Positions 11,133-31,104 of a DNA stretch of 64,000 bases are shown here, piece by piece. The DNA is from Microbacterium commune. GTDB taxonomy: Bacteria > Actinomycetota > Actinomycetes > Actinomycetales > Microbacteriaceae. Numbering within the stretch: position 1 is the stretch's first letter; each line of letters begins with the position of its first letter. The notes under the pieces are model-generated. The model was not told where the DNA came from. It saw nothing but the letters and a program-made list of their open reading frames with translations, and did no database searches. The stretch lies in contig NZ_JACSPX010000001.1 of NCBI RefSeq assembly GCF_014836945.1, positions 1,515,313 to 1,579,312 on the forward strand. The letters run 5' to 3'. The translations under genes were made by a program, and so were the position numbers.

Positions 11133-11169
11133 TTGACAGCTATATAAATACATTCTAATGTCCGGACAA
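11133..11169 (+). promoter_or_regulatory. Phytase promoter with operator A
   Basis: TTGACA at 11133-11138, a 17-base spacer and TAATGT at 11156-11161, close to the sigma-70 consensus in an unusually AT-rich stretch. Operator A, ATGTCCGGACAA at 11158-11169 (core palindrome TGTCCGGACA), overlaps the -10. Same operator family as at 13526, 13629, 24072 and 24193. Drives the phytase gene at 11253. Confidence 0.75.
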
Positions 11170-13525: not shown

Positions 13526-13537
13526 TTGTCAGGACAA
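13526..13537 (-). promoter_or_regulatory. Operator B (upstream of the GntR gene)
   Basis: TTGTCAGGACAA, the most symmetrical copy of the operator (only the central two bases break the palindrome). On the minus strand a TACTGT -10-like hexamer (13542-13537) overlaps it, suggesting autorepression. No good -35 was seen. Confidence 0.65.
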
Positions 13538-13628: not shown

Positions 13629-13640
13629 TTGTTAGGACAA
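13629..13640 (+). promoter_or_regulatory. Operator C on the iol operon promoter
   Basis: TTGTTAGGACAA, overlapping a -10-like TATTGT at 13627-13632, about 26 bases before the iolC start. The -35 is weak (TTCCAC at 13603-13608, 18-base spacer). Confidence 0.7.
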
Positions 13641-14610: not shown

Positions 14611-14611
14611 G

Positions 14612-15559
14612 ATGTCGGTGATCGGATCGGGGGAGTTCGCGCGGCTGCGCGACATCAGGGCCACGCAGCCGGAGCTGGTCTCGGCAGCGCTCGCGGCACG
14701 CAAGCGCCGCCCGCTGCTGCGCGGCGACCAGCGGCTGTTCTTCGTCGCCGCCGACCACCCTGCGCGCGGGGCGCTCTCCGTCGGAGGCGACCGGATGGCG
14801 ATGGCCGACCGCTACGTCCTGCTCGAGCGACTCGTGATCGCGTTGAGCCATCCGGGCGTCGACGGAGTGCTCGGAACCCCGGATATCATCGACGACCTCG
14901 CGCTCCTGGGCGCCCTGGAGGACAAGATCGTCGTCGGGTCGATGAACAGGGGAGGCCTGCAGGGCTCCGGGTTCGAGCTGGATGACCGGTACACCGCCTA
15001 CGACGTGCCGACCATGACCGAACGCGGGATCGATTTCGGGAAAGCCCTGGTGCGGATCGACCTGGACGACCCGGCGACCGCCGGCACGCTGGCGGCGACC
15101 GCCGAGGCGGTGACCGCCGCATCCGCGGCCGGGACGCCCATCATGCTGGAGCCGTTCATGAGCCGGCGACGCGACGGCCGGGTCGTGAACGATCTGACCC
15201 CGGACGCGGTCATCCGCTCCATCTCGATCGCCTCGGCGCTCGGCGCCGACAGCGCGTTCACGTGGCTGAAGCTGCCCGTCGTCGATGAGATGGAACGGGT
15301 GATGGCATCCACCACCATGCCGGCCCTGCTGCTGGGAGGCGACGCCGGCGACGATCCGGACGAGCGGTTCGCCTCCTGGGAGAATGCGCTCGGCCTTCCC
15401 GGCGTCCGCGGTCTCACCGTGGGACGCACGCTGCTGTACCCCGAGGACGGGGACGTCTGGGGCGCCGTCGATGCGGCGGCCCGACTGGTCCACCCGGCCT
15501 TCTCGATCGAAACATCCACCGAGGATCTCGGTGTGCACACCCTGAAGGAGAGAGCATGA
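14612..15559 (+). CDS. DeoC/Cgl0158-type aldolase, probable 6-phospho-5-dehydro-2-deoxygluconate aldolase
   Basis: 315 residues from the ATG at 14612 (GGGAG 7 bases upstream; gap to iolC of one base). Class I aldolase-type barrel related to deoxyribose-phosphate aldolase; conserved-looking stretches are FFVAADHPARGAL, IMLEPFMSRR, TWLKLPVV and LLLGGDAGDDP. The Lys in TWLKLP is a candidate Schiff-base residue. In actinobacterial iol clusters a protein of this kind occupies the place of IolJ, which splits DKG-6-phosphate to malonate semialdehyde and glycerone phosphate. Assignment to that step rests on operon position. Confidence 0.8.
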   Translation: MSVIGSGEFARLRDIRATQPELVSAALAARKRRPLLRGDQRLFFVAADHPARGALSVGGDRMAMADRYVLLERLVIALSHPGVDGVLGTPDIIDDLALLGALEDKIVVGSMNRGGLQGSGFELDDRYTAYDVPTMTERGIDFGKALVRIDLDDPATAGTLAATAEAVTAASAAGTPIMLEPFMSRRRDGRVVNDLTPDAVIRSISIASALGADSAFTWLKLPVVDEMERVMASTTMPALLLGGDAGDDPDERFASWENALGLPGVRGLTVGRTLLYPEDGDVWGAVDAAARLVHPAFSIETSTEDLGVHTLKERA

Positions 15560-17097
15560 CGGTCACAGCCACCGCAGTCCGCACGATCGGACACTGGATC
15601 GACGCAGCGGAGCACGTACCCGACGGCTCTCGCACCGCCGACGTGTTCAACCCCGCCACCGGCACGGTGACGACCCGGCTCGCGCTCGCCGATGACGCGG
15701 TGATCGACCGCGCGATCGAATCCGCGCAGCGGGGCTTCGAGCAGTGGTCCGCATACTCCATCGCCAGGCGCCAGACCGTGCTCTTCGCGTTCCGCGAGCT
15801 GCTGAACGAGCGTCGTGACGAACTCGCCGCCCTCATCACCTCCGAGCATGGCAAGGTGCTCTCCGACGCGATGGGGGAGATCATGCGCGGGCAGGAGGTC
15901 GTCGAGCTGGCCTGCGGCTTCCCGCACCTGACCAAGGGTGAGTTCAGCGAGAACGCCTCCACCGGCGTGGACGTGTACTCGATCAAGCAGCCCCTCGGCG
16001 TGGTCGGGATCATCAGCCCGTTCAACTTCCCGGCCATGGTGCCGATGTGGTTCTTCCCCGTCGCGATCGCGGCAGGCAACGCCGTGATCCTCAAGCCCAG
16101 CGAGAAGGACCCCTCCGCGGCGATGTGGATCGCGCGGCTGTGGGCCGAGGCCGGCCTGCCCGAGGGGGTGTTCACGGTGCTGCAGGGAGACAAGGCGGCC
16201 GTGGACGGGCTGCTGAACGACCCGCGGGTGCAGTCCATCTCGTTCGTCGGCTCCACCCCGATCGCGCAGTACATCTACGAGCAGGCCTCCCGCAACGGCA
16301 AGCGCGTGCAGGCGCTGGGCGGTGCGAAGAACCACATGCTCGTGCTTCCGGATGCCGACCTCGACCTCGTCGCGGATCAGGCGGTCAACGCCGGGTACGG
16401 CGCCGCCGGCGAGCGCTGCATGGCGGTCTCGGTGGTGCTGGCCGTCGAGCCGGTCGCGGACGAGCTGATCGAGAAGATCGCCACGCGCATCAGCAGGCTC
16501 CGCGTGGGCGACGGCGCCGGAGCCGACGGGGTCGAACCGGACATGGGGCCCCTGATCACGCAGGAGCACCGGGACCGGGTCGCGTCGTACGTCGACATCG
16601 CCGAAGCCGACGGCGGCCGCATCGTGGTCGACGGCCGTCGGTTCGAGGCCGAGGGCTGCGAGAGCGGCTTCTTCTTCGGACCGACCCTGATCGACGACCT
16701 TCCGCTGGACTCTCAGGCGTACACAGACGAGATCTTTGGGCCGGTGCTTCAGGTCGTCCGCATCGGCAGCTTCCAGGAGGGGGTCGCGCTGATCAACTCC
16801 GGCAGGTTCGGCAACGGCACGGCCATCTTCACGAACGACGGCGGCGCCGCCCGCCGCTTCCAGCACGAGGTGCAGGTGGGCATGATCGGCATCAATGTGC
16901 CCATCCCGGTCCCCGTGGCGTACCACTCGTTCGGCGGATGGAAGCAGTCGCTGTTCGGCGACGCCAAGGCGTACGGCGTGCACGGGTTCGAGTTCTTCAC
17001 CCGCGAGAAGGCGGTGACCGCACGGTGGATCGACCCGTCCCGGCGTGCCTCCTCCGAGCACGCCGGCATCAACCTCGGCTTCCCGCAGAACGATTGA
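15556..17097 (+). CDS. mmsA: Methylmalonate-semialdehyde/malonate-semialdehyde dehydrogenase (CoA-acylating)
   Basis: 513 residues, aldehyde dehydrogenase superfamily (IolA/MmsA). Converts malonate semialdehyde from inositol to acetyl-CoA and CO2 with NAD+ and CoA. Catalytic Cys in GYGAAGERCMAVSVV (about residue 288), with IISPFNFPAMVPMWFFPVAIA and KPSEKDP forming the NAD site. The start overlaps the aldolase stop by 4 bases. The same enzyme can serve valine catabolism, but the iol operon setting defines its role here. Confidence 0.95.
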   Translation: MTVTATAVRTIGHWIDAAEHVPDGSRTADVFNPATGTVTTRLALADDAVIDRAIESAQRGFEQWSAYSIARRQTVLFAFRELLNERRDELAALITSEHGKVLSDAMGEIMRGQEVVELACGFPHLTKGEFSENASTGVDVYSIKQPLGVVGIISPFNFPAMVPMWFFPVAIAAGNAVILKPSEKDPSAAMWIARLWAEAGLPEGVFTVLQGDKAAVDGLLNDPRVQSISFVGSTPIAQYIYEQASRNGKRVQALGGAKNHMLVLPDADLDLVADQAVNAGYGAAGERCMAVSVVLAVEPVADELIEKIATRISRLRVGDGAGADGVEPDMGPLITQEHRDRVASYVDIAEADGGRIVVDGRRFEAEGCESGFFFGPTLIDDLPLDSQAYTDEIFGPVLQVVRIGSFQEGVALINSGRFGNGTAIFTNDGGAARRFQHEVQVGMIGINVPIPVPVAYHSFGGWKQSLFGDAKAYGVHGFEFFTREKAVTARWIDPSRRASSEHAGINLGFPQND

Positions 17098-17106
17098 GGG
17101 AGCGGC

Positions 17107-18012
17107 ATGACAGAGCAGCGCTGGTTTCATCGGCGGGGCGCTCTCGCCCGCGACGGCTGGGAGAGCGTCGTGGACAGCGGACTGACAGGCTGGCAGCACA
17201 CCGGCCTCCGTGTCGCGGAGCTGCACGGAACCGACGTGCTCCCTCTCGACGAGGAGGGTGTGGAGCGGATCATCGTCCCACTGCACGGGTCGTTCACCGT
17301 GACGCACGCGAACCATCCCGGCGGGGGCGAGACGCTGCTGCACGGCCGCAGGTCGGTCTTCCACGGCCCGACCGACGCGCTGTACCTGCCGAGCGGCGCA
17401 ACGGCTGAGGTCCGCGGCGACGGACGCGTCGCCGTGGCGGAGGCTCCGAACGCGGAGACGCGCTCATGGCGGTACCTGCCGGCCGCCGACACGGCGGTCG
17501 AGCTGCGCGGCGCCGGGCGCTCCAGCCGGCAGGTGCACAACTTCGGCACCCCGGAGGCGCTGGACGCCGACAGGCTGATCGTGTGCGAGGTCATCACGCC
17601 CGCCGGCAACTGGTCGTCGTACCCACCGCACAAGCACGACGAGAGCGTGCCAGGACAGGAATCGCGGCTCGAGGAGATCTACTACTTCGAGGCGGCTCCG
17701 GAGCGCCGCGCCGACAGCCCCGAACCGGGCGCCGCGTTCGGACTCTTCTCGGCATACTCCTCACCGGCCGGCGAGATCGACGTCAACACCATGGTCCGCA
17801 CGGGCGACATCGCCCTGGTGCCCTACGGCTACCATGGCCCTGCGGTCGCGGCACCCGGCTACGACCTGTACTACCTCAACGTCATGGCCGGCCCCGACGC
17901 GGACCGAGCCTGGCTCATCACCGACGATCCCGAGCACGCGTGGGTGCGCGGCTCCTGGGATGCGCAGGAGCCGGATAGCAGGCTCCCCTACCGCGACGAA
18001 GCAGGAGGATGA
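17107..18012 (+). CDS. iolB: 5-deoxy-glucuronate isomerase
   Basis: 301 residues, bicupin fold. Isomerises 5-deoxy-D-glucuronate to DKG. Metal-binding motif SSYPPHKHDE (about residues 172-181) and the downstream EEIYYFE of the catalytic cupin are present. Ribosome site GAGGGAG upstream; starts 9 bases after mmsA. Its terminal ATGA lies within the ribosome-binding region of iolD. Confidence 0.95.
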   Translation: MTEQRWFHRRGALARDGWESVVDSGLTGWQHTGLRVAELHGTDVLPLDEEGVERIIVPLHGSFTVTHANHPGGGETLLHGRRSVFHGPTDALYLPSGATAEVRGDGRVAVAEAPNAETRSWRYLPAADTAVELRGAGRSSRQVHNFGTPEALDADRLIVCEVITPAGNWSSYPPHKHDESVPGQESRLEEIYYFEAAPERRADSPEPGAAFGLFSAYSSPAGEIDVNTMVRTGDIALVPYGYHGPAVAAPGYDLYYLNVMAGPDADRAWLITDDPEHAWVRGSWDAQEPDSRLPYRDEAGG

Positions 18013-18017
18013 CAGGA

Positions 18018-19982
18018 ATGACCGCGACGAGACGGATGACTGCGGGCCAGGCGCTCGCCGAGTTCCTCGCACACCAGTGGACGGTCGACGGAGACCGCCG
18101 CGAGCGCACGATCGCCGGAGTCCTGGGCATCTTCGGGCACGGCAACGTGGCCGGACTCGGGCAGGCGCTGGCACAGGTGCACGCCGCCGATCCCGCGCTG
18201 CTGCCCTACCGTCAGGCCCGCAACGAGCAGGCGATGGTGCATCAGGCGGTGGGATACGCGCGCATGCACCGCCGCCGGGGCACCCTGGCATGCACGGCAT
18301 CCGTGGGGCCGGGAGCCGCGAACATGATCACCGGCGCCGCACTGGCGACCTCGAACCGCCTTCCGGCGCTGCTGCTGCCCAGCGACACCTTCGCGACGAG
18401 GGTGTCCGATCCGGTGCTGCAGCAGCTCGAGCATCCGCACGATCCGGGCGTGCAGGTCACCGACGCCTTCCGGCCGGTGTCGCGGTTCTTCGACCGCGTG
18501 CAGCGGCCGGAGCAGCTGTACTCCATCGCGCTCGGCGCCATGCGGGTGCTCACCGACCCTGCTGAGACGGGGGCGGTCACGATCGCGCTCCCCGAGGACG
18601 TGCAGGCCGAGGCGATGGACGTGCCGCTGGAGTTCCTCCAGGAGCGGGAGTGGCACGTCCGGCGCCCGCTGCCGGAGGCGGGCCCGCTCGCGCGCGCCGT
18701 GGCCGCGATCCGCGCGGCACGCCGCCCGCTCATCGTGGCAGGTGGCGGGGTGCTCTACTCGGGGGCGGAGGACGAGCTGCGCGAGTTCGTCGCCGACACC
18801 GGCATCCCGGTAGCCACCACCCAAGCCGGCGGGGGCTCGCTCAGCTGGGACCACCCGCAGTACCTGGGCGGCGTCGGAGCGACCGGCAGCACCGCCGCGA
18901 ACCGGCTGGCAGCCCACGCGGATGTGGTGGTGGGCATCGGCACGCGGTACAGCGACTTCACGACCGGGTCGCGCACGGCGTTCCGCGACCCGGACGTCGT
19001 CTTCGTGAACATCAACATCTCGTCGTTCGACGCCTACAAGCACGGCACGCAGCTGCCGGTGATCGCCGACGCGCGGGAGACGATCGCCGCGCTGCGCGGA
19101 GCGCTCGCCGGCTGGCGGGTGCAGGCGGATCATGCCGAGACGGCAGCCCGCGAGAAGGCGGAGTGGGACGGGATCGTCGATGAGGCGTTCGCCCCGTCCG
19201 GACTGACCCTGCCCGGTCAGCCGGAGATCATCGGGGCCGTGCAGGCCGCCGCCGCCCCCGAGGACGTCATCGTGCAGGCCGCCGGCTCGCTGCCCGGCGA
19301 CCTGCACAAGCTCTGGCGCGTGCGCGACCCGCTCGGCTACCACGTGGAGTACGCGTTCTCCTGCATGGGGTACGAGATCGCCGGGGGACTGGGGGCCAAG
19401 CGCGGGCTGCTGGCCGACGGCGACGATCGGGACGTGATCGTGATGGTCGGCGACGGCTCCTACATGATGCTCAGCACCGAGCTGGCTACCGTGGTCGCGG
19501 AGGGCATCAAGATCATCGTCATCCTCGTGCAGAACCACGGCTTCGCGTCCATCGGCCACCTCTCCGAGACCGTCGGCTCCGCCCGGTTCGGCACGAAGCA
19601 CCGCATGTACGACTCTCAGGCCGGCGACTTCCAGGGCGATGCGGTGCTGCCCGTCGATCTGGCGATGAACGCACGCAGCTACGGCCTCGACGTCATCGAG
19701 ATCGCGCCCTCTCCGGATGCGATCTCCGACCTCGGTGCGGCGATCGCGCGGGCCAAGGCCGCCGACCGTGCGACCTTCATCCACATCAACAGCGACCCGC
19801 TGCGCTACGCGCCGGAGGGAGAAGGCTGGTGGGACGTGCCCGTCGCCGAGGTCGCGCAGATGGACTCCACACGCGAGGCCAGGGCGCAGTACGAAGCGCA
19901 GGTCGCCGTTCAGCGTCCGCTGCTCGGGGCGGCACCGGCGAGCGCCCCGGTATCCGCGCAGGCGGACGGATCCGGCTCGTGA
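18018..19982 (+). CDS. iolD: 3D-(3,5/4)-trihydroxycyclohexane-1,2-dione hydrolase (ThDP enzyme)
   Basis: About 654 residues, ThDP-dependent acetolactate-synthase family; opens the inositol ring to 5-deoxy-glucuronate. N-terminal Pyr domain with the catalytic Glu region (YRQARNEQAMVHQAVG), a middle domain, and a C-terminal PP domain with GDGSYMMLSTEL...NHGFASIG, the ThDP/Mg motif. An ATG at 18009 overlapping iolB sits directly against AGGAGG (18003-18008). The ATG at 18018 is 9 bases from it and is preferred. Confidence 0.95.
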   Translation: MTATRRMTAGQALAEFLAHQWTVDGDRRERTIAGVLGIFGHGNVAGLGQALAQVHAADPALLPYRQARNEQAMVHQAVGYARMHRRRGTLACTASVGPGAANMITGAALATSNRLPALLLPSDTFATRVSDPVLQQLEHPHDPGVQVTDAFRPVSRFFDRVQRPEQLYSIALGAMRVLTDPAETGAVTIALPEDVQAEAMDVPLEFLQEREWHVRRPLPEAGPLARAVAAIRAARRPLIVAGGGVLYSGAEDELREFVADTGIPVATTQAGGGSLSWDHPQYLGGVGATGSTAANRLAAHADVVVGIGTRYSDFTTGSRTAFRDPDVVFVNINISSFDAYKHGTQLPVIADARETIAALRGALAGWRVQADHAETAAREKAEWDGIVDEAFAPSGLTLPGQPEIIGAVQAAAAPEDVIVQAAGSLPGDLHKLWRVRDPLGYHVEYAFSCMGYEIAGGLGAKRGLLADGDDRDVIVMVGDGSYMMLSTELATVVAEGIKIIVILVQNHGFASIGHLSETVGSARFGTKHRMYDSQAGDFQGDAVLPVDLAMNARSYGLDVIEIAPSPDAISDLGAAIARAKAADRATFIHINSDPLRYAPEGEGWWDVPVAEVAQMDSTREARAQYEAQVAVQRPLLGAAPASAPVSAQADGSGS

Positions 19983-20896
19983 ACGCCACGGTCGCGGGAG
20001 CGCCGGTCAGCTACGGTGTGTTCGAGCTGACTCCCGAAGGCGCGGAGACGGTGTCGCCGGATGCCATGGGGGAGTCGCTGCAGGCGACCGGCTATCGCGG
20101 GATCGATCTCGGCCCGCTCGGGTACCTCGGCCGGGGCCGCGAGCTGCGCGCCAGGCTGGCCAGGTTCGAGCTCGAACTCGCCGGCGGCTGGGTGCAGCTG
20201 CCGTTCAGCGATGACGAGGCGTTCGCGGCATCCCTCCCGGACCTCGATGACGCCCTGCGGGTCTTCTCGGATGCCGCGGAGGCGGCCCCGCAGAGGCTGC
20301 CCCTCCCCACGCTCGCCGACAGCGGCTCGGCTGCCAGGACGGCGGCGCCGGGAAGGGGCGCGAGCGCCGACCCGCTCACCCGAGCGCGTGCGGAACGCCT
20401 GCAGCGCAACGTCGGCCGCGCGGCGGCGACGGTGCGCGCCGCGGGGTTCGAGCCCACCTTCCATCACCACGCGGGGACATTCGTCGAGTCACCCGATGAG
20501 ATCGACGCCTTCCTCGCGCACACCGATGTGGGTCTGACCCTCGACGTCGGGCACCTCGTGCTCGCCGGGGGAGACCCTCTCGAGGGCGTGCGCAGCTGGG
20601 GCGGGCGCATCAACCATCTGCATCTGAAGGATGTCGACCGCGCCCGGGTCGCCGGCATCCTCGCCGCGGGTGGCGGGATGGCGGAGGTGTGGTCCGGCGG
20701 GGCGTTCGTCGCCTTCGGCCGCGGCGACATCGATCTGTCCTCGGTGATGGAGCCGCTCGTCGCAGCCGGGTTCGACGGCTGGGTGGTCGTCGAGCAGGAC
20801 GTGCTCAACGGGCCCGACGTGGCGATCGACGCGTTCCTGCGCGAGCGCACCGCCGACCAGCGCGTCAACCGCGACGCGCTGCTGCCGTGGCTGTGA
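19979..20896 (+). CDS. iolE: Inosose dehydratase (xylose-isomerase-like barrel)
   Basis: 305 residues from the GTG at 19979, whose GTGA overlaps the iolD stop. Dehydrates 2-keto-myo-inositol to the trione-type substrate of IolD. TIM-barrel metal-site stretches: FHHHAGTFVES (about residue 160), LTLDVGHLVLAGGDP and RINHLHLKDVD. An in-frame upstream extension lies wholly inside iolD and is arginine/alanine-rich, so it is rejected. Similarity to other sugar isomerase barrels is generic, but the operon supports IolE. Confidence 0.9.
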   Translation: MNATVAGAPVSYGVFELTPEGAETVSPDAMGESLQATGYRGIDLGPLGYLGRGRELRARLARFELELAGGWVQLPFSDDEAFAASLPDLDDALRVFSDAAEAAPQRLPLPTLADSGSAARTAAPGRGASADPLTRARAERLQRNVGRAAATVRAAGFEPTFHHHAGTFVESPDEIDAFLAHTDVGLTLDVGHLVLAGGDPLEGVRSWGGRINHLHLKDVDRARVAGILAAGGGMAEVWSGGAFVAFGRGDIDLSSVMEPLVAAGFDGWVVVEQDVLNGPDVAIDAFLRERTADQRVNRDALLPWL

Positions 20897-20925
20897 GAAA
20901 TCCGACGAGAAAGCAGGAAAACGCA

Positions 20926-21930
20926 ATGACCATTCGCTTCGGCCTGATCGGAACGGGACGCATCGGCCAGGTCCACGCGGCCAACATCGCTCGCAGCGAC
21001 GACGCGACGCTGAGCTGGATCGCCGATCCCTTCGTCGACGGCGCCCGCCGCGTGTCGGAGCGGTTCGGCGGTGCGGTCACGTCCGACCCCGGGGAGCTGC
21101 TGGCTTCCGGCGAGGTCGATGCTGTCCTGGTCGCCTCGCCCACGCCCACCCACATCGACCTCATCGCCAGGTCGATCGAGCGGGGCCTCCCGGTGCTGTG
21201 CGAGAAGCCGATCGACCTCGACATCGCGCGCGTCGACGCGCTGCGTGAGACGGTCCGCTCCGCCGGTGTTCCGGTGGCGCTCGGCTTCAACCGCCGATTC
21301 GATCCCGCGTTCGCGAGTGTGCGCGCCCGGGTGACGGCGGGTGAGATCGGCTCCCTGGAGCAGCTGACGATCGTCAGCCGCGACCCCGCGCCGCCGCCCG
21401 CCGCCTACATCGCCGAGTCCGGCGGGATCTTCCGCGACATGACCATCCACGACTTCGACATGGTGCGGTTCTTCCTGCCGGAGATCGTCGAGGTCTCCGC
21501 CGCCGGCTCGGCGCTGTTCGACGAGGGCGCCCGCGAGCACGGCGACTTCGACAGCGCGGTGGTGACGCTGCGCGATCGATCCGGAGCGATCGCCACCATC
21601 ATCAACTCGCGGCACAGCGCCGTCGGCTACGACCAGCGGCTGGAAGCGTTCGGGCCTACCGGGTCGCTGTCCGTCGCCAACGCCGCGACGAGTCTGGTCA
21701 GTCTGTCGACTGCCCAGACGGTGGAGGCGAAGCCTCCCTACCAGGACTTCTTCCTGGAGCGCTACGCGCAGGCGTACATCGACGAGCTGCACGAGTTCGT
21801 CAGGCTGGTGCGCGGCGAGGAGTCCACTTCGCCGACGTTCGAGGACGGGCGTGCGGCGCTGGTCCTGGCCGATGCGGCTCAGCGCTCGGCGACCGAGCAC
21901 CGCGTGGTCTCGATCGATCCGGCTGAATGA
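20926..21930 (+). CDS. iolG: myo-Inositol 2-dehydrogenase (Gfo/Idh/MocA family)
   Basis: 334 residues. Oxidises myo-inositol to 2-keto-myo-inositol with NAD+, the first step of the pathway. Rossmann motif GLIGTGRIGQVHAANIA at the N-terminus, the EKP catalytic-lysine motif (CEKPIDLD, about residue 97) and DMTIHDFDM with the catalytic Asp/His pair near residue 175. AAGCAGGAAAA serves as ribosome site. Last gene of the iol operon, ending at a bidirectional terminator. Confidence 0.95.
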   Translation: MTIRFGLIGTGRIGQVHAANIARSDDATLSWIADPFVDGARRVSERFGGAVTSDPGELLASGEVDAVLVASPTPTHIDLIARSIERGLPVLCEKPIDLDIARVDALRETVRSAGVPVALGFNRRFDPAFASVRARVTAGEIGSLEQLTIVSRDPAPPPAAYIAESGGIFRDMTIHDFDMVRFFLPEIVEVSAAGSALFDEGAREHGDFDSAVVTLRDRSGAIATIINSRHSAVGYDQRLEAFGPTGSLSVANAATSLVSLSTAQTVEAKPPYQDFFLERYAQAYIDELHEFVRLVRGEESTSPTFEDGRAALVLADAAQRSATEHRVVSIDPAE

Positions 21931-21977: not shown

Positions 21978-23189
21978 TCAGCGACCGTGCAGGGTCCAGA
22001 GGTCCTGCCATTCGGCGAGGGTGCTGTGATCGTCGGCCGCGGTCGCAGGGTCGGGATCGAAGACCTGATCGCGCGACTGCGCGATGCCCGACGGCTCGGC
22101 ATCCGAGGCGGCGATCGCCGCGTTGGTGGAGAACTTGCCGTCGACCAGCTGCGGGCCGATGCCCTTCTCCGTGAGCAGGTACTGCACGAACAGCTTCGAT
22201 GCGTTCGGGCTGCTCGTGCCGGTCGCGATCACCGCCACCTTCGTGTACGAACGGCCCAGCCACGGCGTGATCCCCTCGCACAGACCGAGGTGGTAGCCGG
22301 CGTCGGCGTTCGACCGGTACTCCGCGGTGCTGACCATCCCCACCGGCGGGGCTGCCTGGCCGGATGCGCCGATCGCCTCGGCGACGTCGCCTCCGGACTG
22401 CTTGAGAATGGGCTCGTTGGCGCCCAGCGCGGCCAGCCACTGTGCGGTAGCGCTCTGCTCCGAGGTGTCGATGGTCTTGCTGAAGTGCTCCTGATAGGCG
22501 GCGGCGACCTCGTCGTCCGCGTGGGTCTGCATCTGATTCACCCAGTACAGGAAGTCCGCCCGCAGCAGCGGGTCCGACAGCGCGACCCGTCCCTTCCACT
22601 CCGCGTCGGTGAGTGCCCACATGTTGTCGACAGGGCAGGTGTCGCCGTAGGTCTCGGTGTTGTAGGTCCAGGCATCGATCTCGGTGGTGATCGCCAGCGG
22701 TGACCGGTACTGCTCCGGGACCTCGTCGAACCCGGAGGGTGGGAACCAGCTGGTCGCCGCCTTCGAGGGGATCAGCTCGGCGCTCACGGCGGGCTCGTCC
22801 GTCATCAGGTAGACGTCGCCCTGCACGTTGCCGCTCTGGGCCTCCCTGGTCATGATCTCCTGCTGCTCGTTGGCCTTAGCCTTGACGCCGGTGGCCTTCA
22901 CGCCGTACTCGGCGGTGAAGGCCGCGGCGATGTCGACGATCTTGCCGGAGACGTCGTATACGACGATCGGGTCCTCCTTCTCGGCGGCCGCGATCAGCGC
23001 CTTGAGAGAGTATTCGTCATCCGGGATGCCGAGCGCCGGCGCGTCGGCATCGGGAGCCGGTGGTGCCGACGACGGGGTGCACCCCGTCAGCACGAGCGCG
23101 GCACCCATGGCGGTCACGGCGACTCTGGCAGCGCCTCGGACGATCACGGTGCCTCTGGCGCGAGGGCGGGGCGGGGTGGCAGTGAGCAT
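21978..23189 (-). CDS. Fe3+/AfuA-type ABC solute-binding lipoprotein, second copy
   Basis: 403 residues. Lipoprotein signal with lipobox LTGC (Cys37), then a periplasmic-binding fold of the SBP_bac_6/AfuA type. It resembles the binding protein at 27376-28575 along its whole length: LGI(P/S)DD(E/G)Y near the mature N-terminus, CP(V/I)DN(M/V)WALTD(A/E)EWKG in the middle and a shared C-terminal half. No permease or ATPase lies beside it on this strand, so it probably feeds the divergent importer with another related substrate. It is downstream of the MgtC-like gene and likely co-transcribed from the operator D promoter. Start chosen by AAAGGAG just upstream. Confidence 0.88.
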   Translation of the reverse strand: MLTATPPRPRARGTVIVRGAARVAVTAMGAALVLTGCTPSSAPPAPDADAPALGIPDDEYSLKALIAAAEKEDPIVVYDVSGKIVDIAAAFTAEYGVKATGVKAKANEQQEIMTREAQSGNVQGDVYLMTDEPAVSAELIPSKAATSWFPPSGFDEVPEQYRSPLAITTEIDAWTYNTETYGDTCPVDNMWALTDAEWKGRVALSDPLLRADFLYWVNQMQTHADDEVAAAYQEHFSKTIDTSEQSATAQWLAALGANEPILKQSGGDVAEAIGASGQAAPPVGMVSTAEYRSNADAGYHLGLCEGITPWLGRSYTKVAVIATGTSSPNASKLFVQYLLTEKGIGPQLVDGKFSTNAAIAASDAEPSGIAQSRDQVFDPDPATAADDHSTLAEWQDLWTLHGR

Positions 23190-23294
23190 GGCTCTCCTTT
23201 GTTGATGGTCGGTCGATCGATGGGTCGGCGGATGCCCGTATCGACGGGCCCCGCATGGTCGGCGGGGGCGACGCTCTCGCGAGATGCCCGGGAC

Positions 23295-24083
23295 TCAGAA
23301 CTCGTCATCGTCCTCTTCCTTGTCGGACTCGTCCAGCCACCAGCGCGCAGAGGTCACCTTCGGGTCGAGCGTGAGCCGGCTGACCGCGCGCTCCAGCGGC
23401 TCGGGGTCCAGCTGCGTCGAGCGGAGCTCGGCGAGGAGCGCGACACGGCCTTGCTTGGTGTGCGAGGTGGTGACCGCCGTGAGGTGGTACTCCGGACGGC
23501 TGAGGGTCTGCAGCAGCAGTGCGCGCACGCGCGGCTCGGCCTTGTCGTTCGTCATGACCTCGAAGGCGAACTGCGAAGGGGTGAGCTCGGACTTCGCGGT
23601 GGGCGTGAGCTGCCGACCGCTTCGCCGGTTGACCACCCGCCCCAGAGGGCGGAGGAAGATGTTCGCCAGCACGATGAGACCGGTGCCGACCACGGCGATG
23701 ATGTACATCCCGGTGCCGGCGAGGCAGCCGATGGCGGCGGAGCACCAGAGCGTGGCGGCGGTGTTCAGACCGCGGATGTTCAATCCCTCGCGGATCATCA
23801 CGCCTGCGCCGAGGAACCCGATCCCGGACACGACCTGAGCAGCGACTCGCGTCGGGTCGGCGGTGCCGTCGGGGGTGAAGCCGTAGGCTCCCATCACAAC
23901 GAACAGTGCTGCCCCGACCGACACCAGCGCATTCGTGCGCAGGCCCGCCCGGCCTGCGCGCCACTGCCGCTCGAGTCCGACGCATGCACCCAGGGTGAGA
24001 CTGAACAGGATGCGGATGCCGACCTCGAGCTCGCTGGGCACCCCCAGGGGGAAGATCTCACTTAAGACCGAATGTAAGGACAT
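23295..24083 (-). CDS. MgtC/SapB-family membrane protein
   Basis: About 262 residues. Four to five hydrophobic segments in the N-terminal 150 residues with the MgtC hallmarks GACVGLERQWRAGRAGLRTNALVSVGAALF and GIGFLGAGVMIREG, and a soluble ACT-like C-terminal domain ending in an acidic tail. MgtC proteins are linked to growth at low Mg2+ and to phosphate/ATP homeostasis. Start: the ATG at 24083 lies 7 bases after a TATTAT -10 and would be leaderless; a GTG two codons upstream (24089) is the alternative. Operator D covers the first codons. Its place in this regulon may relate to phytate being a strong Mg2+ chelator (inference). Confidence 0.88.
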   Translation of the reverse strand: MSLHSVLSEIFPLGVPSELEVGIRILFSLTLGACVGLERQWRAGRAGLRTNALVSVGAALFVVMGAYGFTPDGTADPTRVAAQVVSGIGFLGAGVMIREGLNIRGLNTAATLWCSAAIGCLAGTGMYIIAVVGTGLIVLANIFLRPLGRVVNRRSGRQLTPTAKSELTPSQFAFEVMTNDKAEPRVRALLLQTLSRPEYHLTAVTTSHTKQGRVALLAELRSTQLDPEPLERAVSRLTLDPKVTSARWWLDESDKEEDDDEF

Positions 24084-24118
24084 TTGCACATAATAGGCTC
24101 CCAGCCGCGCGAACTCAA
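24072..24118 (-). promoter_or_regulatory. MgtC promoter with operator D at the transcription start
   Basis: Minus strand: TTGAGT (24118-24113), exactly 17 bases, TATTAT (24095-24090), predicted start at 24083, the A of the ATG. Operator D, ATGTAAGGACAT at 24072-24083, covers +1 to +12. Confidence 0.7.
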
Positions 24119-24167
24119 GAGGGGCAAGGGTCTGAGGGCGGGCGGAACAGTGATCGCGAAGCCCGGG

Positions 24168-24204
24168 CTGGCATTCGGCGCTAGTTGTGCTATTGTCAGG
24201 ACAT
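24168..24204 (+). promoter_or_regulatory. Promoter of the importer operon with operator E
   Basis: CTGGCA (24168-24173), 17 bases, TATTGT (24191-24196). Operator E, TTGTCAGGACAT at 24193-24204, overlaps the -10. The gene starts about 100 bases downstream. Confidence 0.65.
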
Positions 24205-24305: not shown

Positions 24306-26174
24306 ATGAGCAGAACACTTCTCGACGCGCCACGGCCGCAGGCACTGCCCCCGGTGGAGCCGGAGCCCTCATCTTCCCAGGCACGGCCCCGTGGAGGCGG
24401 CCTCTATCGCCTCAAGGTCGCTCTGCGCGAGCCGACGACCATCGTCGGGGTTCTGGCGCTGGCGCTCTTCACTTACCTCATCGTCGTGCCGATCATCAGC
24501 ATGCTCAGCGACGCCGCACTCGTGCAGTACGGCGACGAGTCGCGGAGCGGGCAGAACTTCGGTGAGCTCACGGCGTACTACCTGCAGCGCGTCTTCGCAT
24601 CGCCGCTGTCAGCGACGATCTTCTGGCGCCCGCTGGGGAACACGCTGACGATCGCGTTCGGAGCGATCGCGTTCGCCGTGCTCATCGGCGGAACGATGGC
24701 CTGGCTGCTCAGCCGCACGAACATGTGGGGGCGCAAATGGTTCGCCACCGCGCTGATCGTGCCCTACATGCTCCCGGCCTGGACCTTCGCGCTCGCCTGG
24801 ACGAGCCTGTTCAAGAACCGTCGCATCGGCGGGCAGGCCGGCTGGCTGGAGTCGCTCGGCTTCGAGCCGCCGGACTGGCTGTCGTACGGTCAGGTGCCGA
24901 TCATGGTCGTCCTGGCGCTGCACTACACACCGTTCGTCATCCTGCTCTTCGGCAATGCGCTGCGCCGGTTCGACTCGCAGCTGGAGGACTCCGCACGAAT
25001 CCTCGGCGCACGTCGCTTCACCGTCACCATGCGCGTGATCCTGCCCCTGATGCGGCCGTCCCTCATCTCGGCCATCATCCTGATCTTCGCGAAGTGCCTC
25101 GGCGAGTTCGGCGTCGCCTACGTGCTCGGCATGCCCGTGCAGTACGAGGTGCTCTCCACATCGCTGTACCGCAACATCTCGTCGCGGCAGACCGGCGTCG
25201 CCGCGGTCCTCGCCGGCGCGATCATCCTGATCGGGGTCATCTCGCTGCTGGTGGATGCGCGACTGGTGCGAGAGGGCAAGCGCTTCGTCACGGTCGGATC
25301 CAAGGGTTCGATGAATCGGCTGTCGGACCTCGGCAGGTGGCGCGGTGCGGCGACCGCAGGCGCCAGCCTGGTCTTCGCGATCAGCGTGGCCATCCCGCTG
25401 CTGACGCTGTTCCTGTCGACGGTGATGCGCAAGCCCGCCGACTTCTCACCGGGCAACTTCACGCTCGACTTCTGGATCGGTCAGGGGCTGAAGACGGTCG
25501 CTCTGCCGCAGGGCATCCTCCTGACACCGGAGTTCTGGGCCGCCGCGTGGAACACGCTGTGGATCGTCGGCCTCGCCGCGATGACATCCGGCGTCCTCGG
25601 CCTGCTCGTCGGATACGTCGTGGTGCGCACCCCGGTGAAGTTCGTCGGAGCGGCGCTCAGGCAGATCACCTTCTTCCCGTACCTGGTGCCGGGCATCGCG
25701 TTCGCTGTGGCGTATCTCTCGCTGTTCGCGGTGGCGCGAGGTCCCGTCCCCGCGCTGTACGGCACTGCGGCGATCCTGGTGCTGGCGTTCATCGCTGAGC
25801 AGATGCCCTACGCGTCCCGCGCCGGCATCTCGGCGATGATGCAGCTCGGCAAGGAGCCCGAGGAGGCGGCCCAGGTGGCCGGAGCCGGATGGTGGAAGCG
25901 CATGACGCGCATCGTCATCCCGATCCAGAAGGGATCTCTCGCCACCGGCGTGCTGCTCCCGTTCATCTCCGGTGTGAAGGGGCTGAGCCTTGTCGTCATC
26001 CTCGCCGTGCCGGGAACCCACGTCCTGACGACCTACTCGCTGCAGCTCGTCGACTACGGATACAACCAAGCGGCGAACGCTGTGGTTCTGATGGTGGCGG
26101 CGATCGCCTTCTTCGGGACTCTCTTTGGACAGAAGCTCACCAGGAGCAACTTGGCGGAAGGGCTGGGTGGCTGA
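24306..26174 (+). CDS. Fe3+/AfuB-type ABC transporter permease, fused two-domain
   Basis: About 622 residues with two copies of the permease domain in one chain, roughly 12 membrane segments (first half to about residue 315, second from about 360). Each half has its EAA loop (DSQLEDSARILGARRFTVTM and EEAAQVAGAGWWKRMTRI). This is the FbpB/AfuB architecture used for ferric iron, thiamine, phosphonate or sugar-phosphate uptake. Start ATG 24306 has GAGG 9 bases upstream; an ATG at 24261 adds 15 unconvincing residues. Followed one base after its stop by the ATPase gene. Substrate proposed here to be an inositol phosphate, by context only. Confidence 0.9.
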   Translation: MSRTLLDAPRPQALPPVEPEPSSSQARPRGGGLYRLKVALREPTTIVGVLALALFTYLIVVPIISMLSDAALVQYGDESRSGQNFGELTAYYLQRVFASPLSATIFWRPLGNTLTIAFGAIAFAVLIGGTMAWLLSRTNMWGRKWFATALIVPYMLPAWTFALAWTSLFKNRRIGGQAGWLESLGFEPPDWLSYGQVPIMVVLALHYTPFVILLFGNALRRFDSQLEDSARILGARRFTVTMRVILPLMRPSLISAIILIFAKCLGEFGVAYVLGMPVQYEVLSTSLYRNISSRQTGVAAVLAGAIILIGVISLLVDARLVREGKRFVTVGSKGSMNRLSDLGRWRGAATAGASLVFAISVAIPLLTLFLSTVMRKPADFSPGNFTLDFWIGQGLKTVALPQGILLTPEFWAAAWNTLWIVGLAAMTSGVLGLLVGYVVVRTPVKFVGAALRQITFFPYLVPGIAFAVAYLSLFAVARGPVPALYGTAAILVLAFIAEQMPYASRAGISAMMQLGKEPEEAAQVAGAGWWKRMTRIVIPIQKGSLATGVLLPFISGVKGLSLVVILAVPGTHVLTTYSLQLVDYGYNQAANAVVLMVAAIAFFGTLFGQKLTRSNLAEGLGG

Positions 26175-26175
26175 A

Positions 26176-27297
26176 ATGCCTAACATCACTCTTGAAGGGG
26201 TGCAGAAGAACTACGGTGGAGGGTCAGCCAACGCGGTCGCCAACCTCGACCTGGAGATCCGCGACGGCGAGTTCATGTGCCTGCTCGGACCCTCGGGCTG
26301 CGGGAAGACCACCACGCTGCGCATGATCAGCGGTCTCGAGCACCCCACCGGCGGTCGCATCCGGATCGGCGACCGGGTCGTCGACTCCATCCCCGACAGC
26401 ATCTACGTGCCGCCGGAGAAGCGCGATCTCGGACTCGTGTTCCAGAGCTACGCGCTGTGGCCGCACCTGACGATCGAGAACAACGTGGACTTCGGGCTCC
26501 GGCTGCGCAAGGTGCCGCGCGCCGAGCGCGAGCAGCGCAGGGCCGAGGTGATGGACAAGCTCGGCATCGCGAAGTACCGCAAGCGCTACCCGTCCGAGCT
26601 CTCGGGCGGGCAGCAGCAGCGCGTCGCGCTGGCGCGGATGCTCGCGGTGAACCCCGAGGTGCTTCTGCTGGACGAGCCGCTGTCGAACCTGGACGCGCGG
26701 CTCCGTCTCGAGATGCGAGCCGAGCTGAAGCGCATCCACGAGGAGTTCAACACCACCATCGTCTTCGTGACCCACGACCAGTGGGAGGCGATGACCCTCG
26801 CCACGCAGATCGCCGTGATGAGCGAGGGGGAGCTGCAGCAGCTGGGCACTCCCGACGAGATCTACGAGACGCCCGCGAACCGGTTCGTCGCCGAGTTCGT
26901 CGGCAACCCGCCGATCAACATCATCGAACTGGCGCGCGAGGAGAGCGGCGGGCTGGCGCTGTGGGCCATGCAGTACGTCACCTCGCGTTTCGGCGAGCTG
27001 CACGGACTCGGATCGGTCGGTGTGCGGCCAGAGGCGGTTCAGGTCACCGGCGCACCCGAGAACGTGCCGGACGGCGCGTTCAAGGCCCGGGCCCGGGTCA
27101 CCGGCATCCTCCCCACAGGCGGCAGCTGGATCGTCGAGCTGGATGTCGCCGGCCGCAAGGTGTTCTCGGTCACGAGCCTCGCGCCGGTCTGCCGGGTCGA
27201 CCAGGACGCCTACCTGTGGGTGCAGCCGAGCGACCTCAACCTCTTCGACCACGACGGGGCCCGGCTGCAGCCGGAGCGCCGCCTGCTGGCGGTGTAG
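26176..27297 (+). CDS. ABC transporter ATP-binding protein (FbpC/AfuC/PotA type)
   Basis: 373 residues. Walker A GPSGCGKTT at 38-46, signature LSGGQQQR at 142-149, Walker B LLLDEPLSNLD, and H-loop in FVTHDQWEAMTLA. The C-terminal third (from about residue 240) is a TOBE-type regulatory domain. Powers the fused permease encoded just upstream (one-base gap). The product belongs to the iron/spermidine/sulfate-type importer ATPases, which also include hexose-phosphate importers (AfuC). Confidence 0.93.
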   Translation: MPNITLEGVQKNYGGGSANAVANLDLEIRDGEFMCLLGPSGCGKTTTLRMISGLEHPTGGRIRIGDRVVDSIPDSIYVPPEKRDLGLVFQSYALWPHLTIENNVDFGLRLRKVPRAEREQRRAEVMDKLGIAKYRKRYPSELSGGQQQRVALARMLAVNPEVLLLDEPLSNLDARLRLEMRAELKRIHEEFNTTIVFVTHDQWEAMTLATQIAVMSEGELQQLGTPDEIYETPANRFVAEFVGNPPINIIELAREESGGLALWAMQYVTSRFGELHGLGSVGVRPEAVQVTGAPENVPDGAFKARARVTGILPTGGSWIVELDVAGRKVFSVTSLAPVCRVDQDAYLWVQPSDLNLFDHDGARLQPERRLLAV

Positions 27298-27375: not shown

Positions 27376-28575
27376 ATGACGTTCACGACAAGATCGTCCG
27401 CGCGTGTTGTGACAGCGCTGGCGTCGGTATCCCTGCTCTCCGTCGGCCTCCTCGCCTGCGCCCCCTCATCCGGGGGCGCGGCAGCCGAGGAGAAGACGAA
27501 GAAGCCGGCTGTCGAGCTGGGCATCAGCGACGACGGCTACACGCTCGACAAGCTCGTCGAAGCAGCCAAGAAGGAGGGCCCGCTGGTCGTCTCCGACAGC
27601 ACCGGCAAGATCACCGACATGGCGGACGCGTTCACCGAGAAGTACGGCATCAAGACCACGGGGGTGAAGCAGAAGGCCGGCGAGGCCACCGAGATCGCGA
27701 TCCGGGAGGCCGCTGCCAGCAACGTGCAGACGGACGTCTTCATCCTCAGCGACGCGCCGGCCGGCAAGCGCGAGCTCGTCGACCGCGACATCGCCATCTC
27801 GTGGACTCCGCCGGACCTCGCCGACCTGATCGACAAGGAGTACAAGGACCCGCTGACGGTCGCCACCGACGTGCAGGTCTGGGGATACAACACCGAGCTC
27901 TACCCGGACGGCTGCCCGATCGACAACGTGTGGGCTCTCACCGACGAGGAGTGGAAGGGCCACGTGGTCATGCAGGACCCGACGCTGATGGCGCCGATCG
28001 TGTACTGGATCAACGAGATGGCGACCAACCACGACGACAAGATGAAGAAGGCATATGAGGACTACTTCGGAGAGAACTTCTCCGGTGATGAGGAGACCGC
28101 TTCCGCCGAGTGGCTGAAGCGCCTGGCGCAGAACGACCCGCTGCTGGTGAAGAGCGGCGGCGACTCCGCGGAGTCCGCTGGAGCGCCGGGCCAGACCGAG
28201 GGGTTCATGGGCCTGATGAGCACGGCGAAGTTCCGCGAGAACGAGGACAGCGGGTACAAGCTCGGGCTCTGCACGGGCGTGGCGCCATACTCCGCGTTCG
28301 GCTACAGCAAGGTGGGCCTGATCGCCAAGGGCACCAAGAGCCCGAACGCCGCCAAGCTCTTCATGCACTACGTGATGACCGCAGAGGGCTTCGCCCCGCA
28401 GAACGAGGACGGCAAGTTCTCCACCAACAGCGAGGTGCCGCCCGCCGAGGACGAGCCGTCCGGCATCCTCGACGTCTGGGACGAGGTCTCCATGCCCGAC
28501 CGGGCGATGCTCGACAGCAACTTCGACGAGCTGCCCCGCTGGAGCGACTTCTGGATCCAGGCCAACCACTCCTGA
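27376..28575 (+). CDS. Fe3+/AfuA-type ABC solute-binding lipoprotein
   Basis: 399 residues. Lipobox LLAC with Cys28 after a hydrophobic VVTALASVSLLSVGLL. Mature protein is of the AfuA/SBP_bac_6 type (GPLVVSDSTGKITDMADAFTEKYG near residue 75). No obvious tyrosine pair typical of ferric-binding proteins is apparent by eye, which leaves room for an organic-phosphate ligand such as those of AfuA. Encoded after the ATPase with GGAAAGAGAA as ribosome site. Paralogue of the minus-strand protein at 21978-23189. Confidence 0.9.
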   Translation: MTFTTRSSARVVTALASVSLLSVGLLACAPSSGGAAAEEKTKKPAVELGISDDGYTLDKLVEAAKKEGPLVVSDSTGKITDMADAFTEKYGIKTTGVKQKAGEATEIAIREAAASNVQTDVFILSDAPAGKRELVDRDIAISWTPPDLADLIDKEYKDPLTVATDVQVWGYNTELYPDGCPIDNVWALTDEEWKGHVVMQDPTLMAPIVYWINEMATNHDDKMKKAYEDYFGENFSGDEETASAEWLKRLAQNDPLLVKSGGDSAESAGAPGQTEGFMGLMSTAKFRENEDSGYKLGLCTGVAPYSAFGYSKVGLIAKGTKSPNAAKLFMHYVMTAEGFAPQNEDGKFSTNSEVPPAEDEPSGILDVWDEVSMPDRAMLDSNFDELPRWSDFWIQANHS

Positions 28576-28609: not shown

Positions 28610-29458
28610 ATGACTGATGTGACCCTCGAATCCCGCACCCTGAGGCGGACGGCCGTCGGCGCCGCCCTCGGAGTCGGCGACCAGCTGCGGGCCGCCTTCC
28701 GGGCGCCCATGCAGCGAGATTTCAAGAGAGACGCGCACGACATCGTCACCGTGCACGACAAGGCGGCCGAGAAGAGCATCACGACGGTGCTGCTCTCGGG
28801 ACACCCCGACTCCATGATCGTGGGCGAGGAAGGGGGCGTCAGCGGTTCCGGTCGAGTGCAATGGCACATCGATCCGATCGATGGCACCTCCAACTTCGCC
28901 CGCGGTCTGGCGTACTGGTGCGTCTCCATCGCGGCCGTCATCGAAGAGCGGGTCGTCGCGGGGGTGGTGTTCGATCCGATGGCCGGCAACGTGTTCAGCG
29001 CCGACCTGACCGGAGCCTGGCTCGGCGACGACCCGCTGACGTCACGCGCCGCCGCGGCCGAGATCGACGCCACCGTGGTCTCGAGCTTCCCGAACCCGAA
29101 GGACACCTGGCTCTTCGGCGAGACCGCCTACGAAGCGCAGGCCCGCCTGGTCGACGCGTTCCAGGCCGTGCGCAATTTCGGCAGCGGCGCGCTCAACCTC
29201 GCGCACGTCGCGGCCGGCTGGGCCGACGCGACGATGGGCTTCTACACGAACTCGTGGGACATCTCGGCAGGCGGGTTCATCCTGCAGCAGGCCGGCGGCA
29301 GCATCCAGGGCCTGGCCGGCGGAGAGCACCGCGAGACGTTCCACACATCACCCGACTACTACGCGGTCGGCGAGGGCGGCGACTACCCCACCCTCGCCGA
29401 CGTCATGCGGACCTGGTCATCGCGCTACGACGCGACCAGCCCGCCTCCGCGACGCTGA
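28610..29458 (+). CDS. Inositol monophosphatase family protein, copy 1
   Basis: 282 residues, Mg2+-dependent Li-sensitive phosphatase fold. All metal-site motifs are present: GEE at 72-74, DPIDGT at 88-93, and WD with Asp217. Family members hydrolyse inositol monophosphates, but also 3'-phosphoadenosine phosphate, fructose-1,6-bisphosphate or histidinol phosphate. Its place in an operon with an importer, in the same regulon as inositol catabolism, argues for inositol phosphate. Clearly related to the copy at 30274 (FKRDAHDIVTVHDK versus HKRDARDVVTVHDK). Confidence 0.92.
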   Translation: MTDVTLESRTLRRTAVGAALGVGDQLRAAFRAPMQRDFKRDAHDIVTVHDKAAEKSITTVLLSGHPDSMIVGEEGGVSGSGRVQWHIDPIDGTSNFARGLAYWCVSIAAVIEERVVAGVVFDPMAGNVFSADLTGAWLGDDPLTSRAAAAEIDATVVSSFPNPKDTWLFGETAYEAQARLVDAFQAVRNFGSGALNLAHVAAGWADATMGFYTNSWDISAGGFILQQAGGSIQGLAGGEHRETFHTSPDYYAVGEGGDYPTLADVMRTWSSRYDATSPPPRR

Positions 29459-29488: not shown

Positions 29489-30277
29489 ATGACGAAACTC
29501 ATCAGGCCCCGCGGTCTGCTGGTGGACTTCGGCGGCGTCATCGTCGAGACGGCGAGTCGCGCCGGCTGGCGCGGCGAACTGGCAGAGCTCGTGCACGACC
29601 GGCTCACCGAAGCGGGGATCGAGTTCCCGAGCCTGACGAAGGAGGCCATCGAGGACGACCTTCGAGAGGGGGCCAAGGCCGACTCGCGCTGGAAGGACGC
29701 CATGTCGCGCCCGTTCGCTCCCGCCGAGCTGACCTATCGGGAGTTCTGGGAGGGGTTCGTTGCGGCCGACTGGCCGACAGCCGCCCGGGAGTACGTCCGC
29801 GAGCACGCTCGCGAGCTGTGCCGCGAGATGGGGGAGAGAAAGCAGGAGCGCGTCACCCGCGACGGCTTCATCGAGGTCCTGGATCTGGCGGACGAGGCAT
29901 CCATCCCCGTTGCCATCGTCAGCAACACCCTGATGGGCCAGGTGCATCGCGACTACCTCACCCGGCACGGACTGACCGACCGCTTCGTGGAGCAGATCTA
30001 CAGCGACGAGGTCCGCGTGCGCAAGCCCAACCCCGAGATGATCCACCTCGGCGCCCGCTCGATCGACGAGACAGCAGCCACGTGCTGGTACGTGGGCGAC
30101 AACTTCGACCGCGATGTGCTCTGCGGCGTGCGCGCCGGCGTCGGCGGCAACATCCTGATGGAGGCGCGCAGCACCTACGACCTGCCGTATCAGCTGTCGG
30201 TGACCGCGGATGCCGTCGTCGCCGACCCGTGGGGGCTGCTGGAGATCATGTCGGCATCGCTGGAGCGTGTTGCGTGA
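29489..30277 (+). CDS. HAD-superfamily phosphatase (YihX-like)
   Basis: 262 residues. HAD motif I LLVDFGGVIV (nucleophile Asp13; Gly replaces the second Asp, as in YihX-like phosphatases), motif II VSNT, motif III Lys in RKPNPEM, and motif IV GDNFDRD. A helical cap is inserted after motif I (about residues 30-110). Probably a small-molecule phosphatase acting on sugar or polyol phosphates. Sandwiched between two inositol-monophosphatase genes; its stop overlaps the next start by 4 bases (GTGA). Substrate not known. Confidence 0.88.
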   Translation: MTKLIRPRGLLVDFGGVIVETASRAGWRGELAELVHDRLTEAGIEFPSLTKEAIEDDLREGAKADSRWKDAMSRPFAPAELTYREFWEGFVAADWPTAAREYVREHARELCREMGERKQERVTRDGFIEVLDLADEASIPVAIVSNTLMGQVHRDYLTRHGLTDRFVEQIYSDEVRVRKPNPEMIHLGARSIDETAATCWYVGDNFDRDVLCGVRAGVGGNILMEARSTYDLPYQLSVTADAVVADPWGLLEIMSASLERVA

Positions 30278-31104
30278 CCGAGGAGCCGCACGCGCGATCG
30301 CGTCGACTGCGTGAGATCGCCGAGGGCGCAGCGCGGTCGGTGCAGGAGCAGCTGCGCGAGGCCTTCCGCGGTCGGATGACCGTCGATCACAAGCGGGATG
30401 CCCGCGATGTGGTCACAGTGCACGACAAGAACGCGGAGAAGGCCATCGCGGCGTACATCTTCGAGCACGAGCCCGATTCGCGGCTGCTCGGCGAGGAGGG
30501 CGGTGCCGTCGGCGACGGCAGCGTGTCGTGGTTCGTCGATCCCATCGACGGGACGAGCAACTTCGTCGACGGGATCGCGTTCTGGTGCATCTCCATCGCC
30601 GCCGCCGTGGACGGCGAGGTCGTCGCGGCAGTCATCCTCGATCCGATGGCGGACGACCTGTTCGCCGCCGACCTCGACGGCGCCTGGCTGAACGGCTCGG
30701 CGATGCGCTCGAACGCCGCGAAGGCGGAGGCGGAGGCGACGCTGATCACCGGGTACCCCAACGCCCGGCAGCTCTCGGCGCACGGCGGAGTCGCGCTCAC
30801 CGACTTCGCCGAGCTGGTGCTCGCGTTCCGCGCGCTGCGCCGGCCGGGGAGCGCAGCGCTGACGCTGGCGCACGTGGCGGCGGGCTGGGCGGATGCCGCG
30901 GCGGGCTTCAGCGTGAACCCGTGGGATGTCAGCGCCGCCGAGCTCATCGTGCGGCAGGCCGGGGGGACCTACGTGCCCCTGGCGGTCGGGCAGTCGGAAC
31001 GGCCCGCGCACTCCTACGAGCACCGTGGATACGTGGCCGTGGGAGGCGGAGGCTCGTACCCGACCCTGATGGCTGTCGCCCGCGACATCGCGGCGCGCAG
31101 CTGA
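30274..31104 (+). CDS. Inositol monophosphatase family protein, copy 2
   Basis: 276 residues from the GTG at 30274 overlapping the HAD stop. Motifs GEE at 73-75, DPIDGT at 89-94 and NPWDVSAAE with the third metal Asp are intact, so it should be active. Looks like a duplicate of the 28610 gene that has diverged; the two may act on different phosphate positions or isomers. Last gene of the importer operon, followed by a strong terminator. Confidence 0.92.
   Translation: MTEEPHARSRRLREIAEGAARSVQEQLREAFRGRMTVDHKRDARDVVTVHDKNAEKAIAAYIFEHEPDSRLLGEEGGAVGDGSVSWFVDPIDGTSNFVDGIAFWCISIAAAVDGEVVAAVILDPMADDLFAADLDGAWLNGSAMRSNAAKAEAEATLITGYPNARQLSAHGGVALTDFAELVLAFRALRRPGSAALTLAHVAAGWADAAAGFSVNPWDVSAAELIVRQAGGTYVPLAVGQSERPAHSYEHRGYVAVGGGGSYPTLMAVARDIAARS

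Follow-up and report, generated by a model that had tools for sequence, protein, structure and literature searches.

The window is a 64,000-nucleotide stretch of the Microbacterium commune genome. It holds an mgtC gene among predicted phytase, inositol catabolism and transport genes, with five palindromic putative operator sites, at the phytase gene, gntR, iolC, mgtC and the permease gene. Features are listed below with their window coordinates, strand and basis.

11159..11168: putative operator before the phytase gene, overlapping the TAATGT of TTGACA-N17-TAATGT (operator search; sequence)
11253..12671, plus: MINPP-like phytase, histidine phosphatase branch 2 (PF00328; match to a solved MINPP)
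12723..13484, minus: GntR/UTRA regulator, presumed repressor (PF00392 and PF07702 on the longer ORF 12723-13622)
13527..13536: putative operator before gntR (operator search)
13630..13639: putative operator before iolC, overlapping TATTGT, a -10 read by eye (operator search)
13666..21930, plus: iolC, Cgl0159-like, iolA, iolB, iolD, iolE and iolG (gene order also in relatives L126-L129)
21978..23189, minus: ABC solute-binding protein 1, downstream of mgtC (PF13531)
23295..24083, minus: mgtC, MgtC/SapB family with MgtC C-terminal domain (PF02308, PF21770)
24072..24083, minus: putative mgtC operator ATGTCCTTACAT, codons 1-4 (M S L H), predicted +1 to +12 (leave-one-out matrix; conservation)
24090..24095, minus: predicted -10 element of mgtC, TATTAT, ending 6 bases before the ATG (sequence)
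24113..24118, minus: predicted -35 element of mgtC, TTGAGT (sequence; consensus scan)
24194..24203: putative operator before the ABC transporter genes, overlapping TATTGT, a -10 read by eye (operator search)
24306..26174, plus: two-domain ABC permease (PF00528)
26176..27297, plus: ABC ATPase (PF00005 on the longer ORF 26125-27297; ATG at 26176)
27376..28575, plus: solute-binding protein 2 (PF13531, PF13416)
28610..29458, plus: inositol monophosphatase family protein 1 (PF00459, 156.1 bits)
29489..30277, plus: HAD-type hydrolase (PF00702, PF13419)
30280..31104, plus: inositol monophosphatase family protein 2, start codon provisional (PF00459, 166.6 bits)

The mgtC product has an MgtC domain (PF02308, 131.2 bits; cut-off 31.4) and an MgtC C-terminal domain (PF21770, 71.2 bits; cut-off 27), and its C-terminal part matches 7qa5 and 2lqj. 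It scores 171.2 bits against the MgtC equivalog PRK15385, below the NCBI cut-off of 255. Its nearest named relatives are from M. bovistercoris (85% identity) and M. hydrocarbonoxydans (87%). Between mgtC and the gene for solute-binding protein 1 a consensus scan reported neither a terminator-like site nor a second promoter-like one, so the predicted leaderless promoter of mgtC may also drive the binding-protein gene, and the two are perhaps co-transcribed. The same gene order recurs in relatives L130 and L161. An MFS-like ORF, named by reading its translation, follows mgtC in place of the binding-protein gene in L127.

The phytase product has an N-terminus that resembles a signal peptide by eye. 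Its best solved match is a multiple inositol-polyphosphate phosphatase (7zgf, residues 10-412, 286.7 bits), and the alignment includes RHGSR and HAEE, which we take to be the RHG and HAE motifs of MINPP-type phytases. The long similarity and these motifs identify 11253-12671 as a predicted MINPP-type phytase gene, and this match is the ground for assigning phytate to the regulon. The regulator carries both a GntR helix-turn-helix (PF00392, 50.4 bits) and a UTRA domain (PF07702, 140 bits), and its gene is divergent from the inositol catabolism genes. The latter were given their presumed iol names by reading their sequences; the product of 14609-15559, one of these genes, matches PF22649. The best NCBIfam match of the ABC permease is TIGR03262 PhnU2 (151.3 bits), below the cut-off of 593.25. 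The genes from the ABC permease to the second inositol monophosphatase family protein, including the HAD hydrolase, run divergently from mgtC. Read as a pathway, the locus would cut phytate outside the cell, import phosphate esters (the presumed substrate), dephosphorylate them inside and degrade the inositol.

Promoter and start codon of mgtC

On the minus strand, TTGAGT (24118-24113), a 17-base spacer, TATTAT (24095-24090) and GTGCAA precede the ATG at 24083; the elements and spacer match exactly those given in a sequence-only reading of this DNA. That reading also took the promoter to be leaderless, which comparison of relatives supports, the layout being kept in seven genomes. TTGA-N17/18-TANNNT followed after 6-7 bases by ATGTCYTTACAT, at the start codon, is present in all seven genomes whose mgtC was found to be 77% or more identical: G000, G346, G149, G115, G282, G366 (through its duplicate G451) and G607. 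G366 and G607 are labelled as another genus of the family. The seven were picked by the operator pattern, yet they are all that were found at this identity. Their -35 element is TTGAGT, TTGAGC or TTGAAC. Mean pairwise identity is 0.81 in the -35, 0.34 in the spacer, 0.75 in the -10 and 0.25 in upstream DNA, the values for the two elements being inflated because the pattern itself fixes four bases of the -35 and three of the -10.

This promoter was the sole promoter-like site in a consensus scan of 21900-24320 (mean of 0.2 in shuffles). A post hoc pattern, TTGANN-N16-19-TANNNT-N5-8-ATG, written after the aligned promoters had been seen, fits 2 of the 1,435 ATGs on both strands of the window, with an equally post hoc chance per start of 0.000025-0.0009 under Markov models of the seven upstream regions. 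The second ATG, at 11170, lies in the phytase leader and the same putative regulon.

Alternatively, mgtC would be leadered and start at an in-frame GTG (24089), with GGAG as Shine-Dalgarno sequence, a promoter farther upstream and TATTAT present by chance. This GTG, absent from the sequence-only reading, lies at a good spacing, eight bases downstream of GGAG. Pairing of the anti-Shine-Dalgarno sequence with the 20 bases upstream of the ATG reaches -6.5 kcal/mol, owing to a GGGAG that lies 14 bases from the ATG and 8 from the GTG; 3 of 14 neighbour genes pair equally or more weakly (-6.5, -5.8 and -5.6). The genes iol14606 and IMPase2, whose assigned first codons are not starts, were left out of this comparison, leaving 14, and kept in the codon count given below. 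Across the seven leaderless genomes pairing varies from 0.0 to -6.5 kcal/mol, the window value overlapping those three neighbours, whereas the -35/-10 pattern is kept. The GTG is absent from five of the six other leaderless relatives, a stop codon separates GTG and ATG in G346, and the scan gave no other promoter-like site. We regard a start at the GTG as highly improbable.

Two more distant genomes, G192 and G090 (mgtC 65-68% identical), keep the MSLH start in leadered form, with GGAGGA before the ATG as Shine-Dalgarno sequence (-10.1 and -9.5 kcal/mol). Since GGAGGA precedes the same ATG, these genes support the ATG start and confine leaderlessness to one branch. The mgtC transcript presumably starts on the ATG or within a base or two of it, a leader of 1-3 bases being possible.

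Operator sites and the first mgtC codons

A leave-one-out matrix built from the four other operators (phytase, gntR, iolC and ABC permease) scores the mgtC site at 15.6, rank 5 of about 64,000 window positions, and the next-best position at 4.8; this result is not post hoc. In the full matrix the site is narrowly the lowest of the five (23.9 versus 24.0-27.5). The exact mgtC 12-mer with up to two mismatches has 2 matches in the window versus a mean of 0.64 in shuffles, so that this search is not significant by itself. Elsewhere the leave-one-out score is 5.5 in G346, 1.7 in G192 and 9.3 in G090, and in the other six leaderless loci 2-5 positions outscore the mgtC site. The proposal in the sequence-only reading that the operator doubles as the first mgtC codons gains support from this matrix and from the comparison of relatives.

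For the looser pattern TGTCNNNACA, 49 matches are listed on both strands of the 2.73-Mb assembly, and controls give a similar number; the core by itself therefore lacks specificity, and it is the extended sites that count. Across 139.6 kb of sequence from seven relatives, in eight stretches, 25 sites score at least 16, versus one in 1.396 Mb of Markov sequence. Operators stand at the same five places in L126, L127 and L129, and at four in L128, where the phytase is absent. Twelve further gntR loci were compared, the best 12 of 96 genomes with the regulator, and each has a site scoring at least 12 in the gntR-iolC interval. With this linkage to gntR, the TGT-N4-ACA sites are candidate targets of the GntR/UTRA regulator.

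The register differs within the locus. At the phytase, iolC and permease genes the operator shares TGT with the end of the -10 element (read by eye), whereas the mgtC operator starts past the -10 and would cover +1 to +12. The site at 24072 could instead be an auxiliary operator that acts by looping on the ABC promoter 121 bp away, in the same divergent intergenic region, and does not control mgtC. The two sites are, however, 886-892 bp apart in L127, L128 and L129, in L130 and L161 some 9-10 kb or more separates the permease gene from mgtC, and the operator always stays on the mgtC start. A purely auxiliary role is very unlikely. An extra operator-like site occurs 61 bases before the mgtC-start site in L130 (8165) and L161 (10282).

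Coding constraint was weighed against operator function. The sequence ATGTCCTTACAT might be merely the codons of a conserved MSLH start, which is common to all nine genomes compared. Common codons would serve, yet the third codon is TTA in the seven leaderless genomes and CTA in G192 and G090, where the start reads ATGTCACTACAT; these are 1 and 0, respectively, of 547 leucine codons in 16 window neighbour genes. The rare-codon argument is weaker in G366 and G607 because both use TTA elsewhere among the first codons. Third positions of the operator codons are 0.93 identical across the seven genomes, versus 0.39 in codons 5-14. Both the TTA and the CTA forms keep TGT-N4-ACA, and by its leave-one-out score the window site falls in with the other four operators. 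That the codons reflect MSLH only is hardly credible; we favor an operator written into codons 1-4. The window mgtC has a second TTA at codon 7 (24063-24065, minus), outside the operator, where the other six leaderless relatives have none.

ATGs also lie just past other operators, at the phytase gene (11170) and in the permease and iolC leaders. They were considered as starts of leaderless leader peptides and treated as chance, because the 18-base sites of two relatives, L126 and L127, have no ATG there. At 11170-11220 (plus), the predicted phytase transcript start adjoins the ATG of a 16-codon ORF with one cysteine, and near 24203 the ABC operator is followed by an ORF of 6 codons.

Distribution among related genomes

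The regulator and ABC permease genes are found in the stretch around mgtC in all nine genomes examined with mgtC at least 65% identical. This linkage, together with the shared operator, supports the earlier claim that mgtC belongs to a phytate/inositol regulon. The iol genes are in seven of the nine stretches and were not found in those of G366 and G607. Phytase is encoded in seven of the nine genomes; none was found in the G607 stretch or in the G115 assembly, where absence is uncertain because the contig ends about 140 bases beyond gntR.

Among 366 genomes of the genus, 7 have mgtC at least 65% identical, 6 have phytase at least 67% identical, and 6 have both. The GntR regulator is found at E 1e-60 or better in 96 of the 366, and iolC adjoins gntR in all 12 loci examined (the best 12 of the 96). 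The mgtC and phytase genes thus seem to have been added, in fewer genomes, to an iol locus that is itself common. The genomes are related and do not represent independent events; the locus may move as a block.

Nine loci with mgtC homologues of 41-57% identity (L021-L023 and L162-L167; L024, L025 and other homologue loci were left out) have no operator scoring at least 9.5 and no iol or phytase match, so the association is seen only in the clade of at least 65% identity. Distant phytase homologues occur in G101 (49%) and G340 (44%), genomes that lack a close mgtC. The MgtC homologues of L166 and L167 (56-57%) adjoin a peptide-type ABC operon (SBP_bac_5) and have no operator, and L162 and L163 have two ABC ATPase matches beside mgtC. 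L127 has a calcineurin-like phosphoesterase ORF (16576-17448, named from its sequence) divergent to mgtC; a similar sequence lies upstream in L128 and L129 and is absent from the window. In L133 (G090; a one-contig assembly, 68% complete) several locus genes including mgtC are split into two frames, probably by sequencing error.

Proposed regulation and known systems

Promoter layout, conservation, shared operator and linkage make it quite probable that mgtC is a leaderless gene repressed by the HutC-type GntR regulator of the phytate-inositol regulon. A sigma-70-type promoter would start transcription at the ATG or one or two bases from it and yield a leaderless mRNA, and the repressor would bind ATGTCCTTACAT at +1 to +12. 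Without inducer, presumably an inositol-pathway metabolite, the bound repressor would exclude or trap RNA polymerase at the start, so that mgtC and the phytase, iol and transport genes would all be silent. With phytate present, the inducer would free the site, and mgtC would be induced with these genes. Its mRNA would begin at the ATG and be translated without a leader. Operator, start of transcription, start codon and coding DNA would then coincide in a single 12-base sequence, a compact natural case.

Phytate chelates Mg2+, and inositol monophosphatases need Mg2+. The most likely role of MgtC, proposed by analogy with Salmonella, would be to balance phosphate (or Mg2+) at a time when phosphate is being freed from phytate and inositol phosphates and Mg2+ is being bound by them. 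More tentatively, we suggest that MgtC, in a free-living bacterium, is devoted to phosphate homeostasis within a regulon for feeding on phytate, with the repressor site fixed as codons 1-4 of a leaderless gene. If so, selection on the operator would dictate the MgtC N-terminus and a very rare leucine codon, because the repressor site is the start codon and the next three. A role in Mg2+ supply in place of phosphate balance is somewhat unlikely: it would fit phytate's binding of Mg2+, the monophosphatases' need for it and the response of Salmonella mgtC to low Mg2+ (PMC6658541), whereas the operator puts mgtC under a catabolic-type regulator and not an Mg2+ sensor.

A search of the open-access literature gave no evident work on MgtC with phytate, on MgtC with inositol and a regulon in Actinobacteria, on phytase with inositol catabolism in Microbacterium, or on phytate, GntR and iol together, the few hits seeming unrelated from their titles. 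Leaderless genes in Actinobacteria are ordinary; the mgtC-phytate link and the conserved operator used as codons are new as far as searched. Work on MgtC has centred on virulence, and there is no settled view of its core biochemical role. A Microbacterium with mgtC induced on phytate breakdown would be a clean setting for distinguishing phosphate, Mg2+ or ATP as the MgtC target. Several targets are listed in PMC6658541.

According to the same paper, Salmonella MgtC activates PhoR and phosphate uptake, binds ATP synthase and is linked to low Mg2+. The window gene resembles Salmonella mgtC in encoding an MgtC family protein, whose link to phosphate and Mg2+ physiology is known from Salmonella (PMC6658541). 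In Salmonella, mgtC is under PhoP/PhoQ control and carries a regulatory leader of 296 nt, whereas the window mgtC is apparently leaderless and lies in a phytate locus, with an operator of the GntR type. Two further sources report leaderless transcripts as nearly a quarter of those in mycobacteria (PMC4633059) and 33% in C. glutamicum (PMC5401885). The leaderless genes described there have the ATG at the mRNA 5' end and lack a Shine-Dalgarno sequence, and the same is proposed for mgtC; unlike such genes generally, mgtC has a start that doubles as a putative repressor site, with codons kept across species. The ABC importer is likened by working principle to AfuABC, a predicted iron-type importer shown to carry phosphorylated carbohydrates (PMC4546632); phosphate-ester import here is a prediction from the genes. 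The regulator resembles HutC/GntR-UTRA catabolic repressors in its GntR and UTRA domains, a site at its own gene and palindromic TGT-N4-ACA, and differs from them in a presumed regulon that unites phytase, phosphate-ester uptake, inositol catabolism and mgtC.
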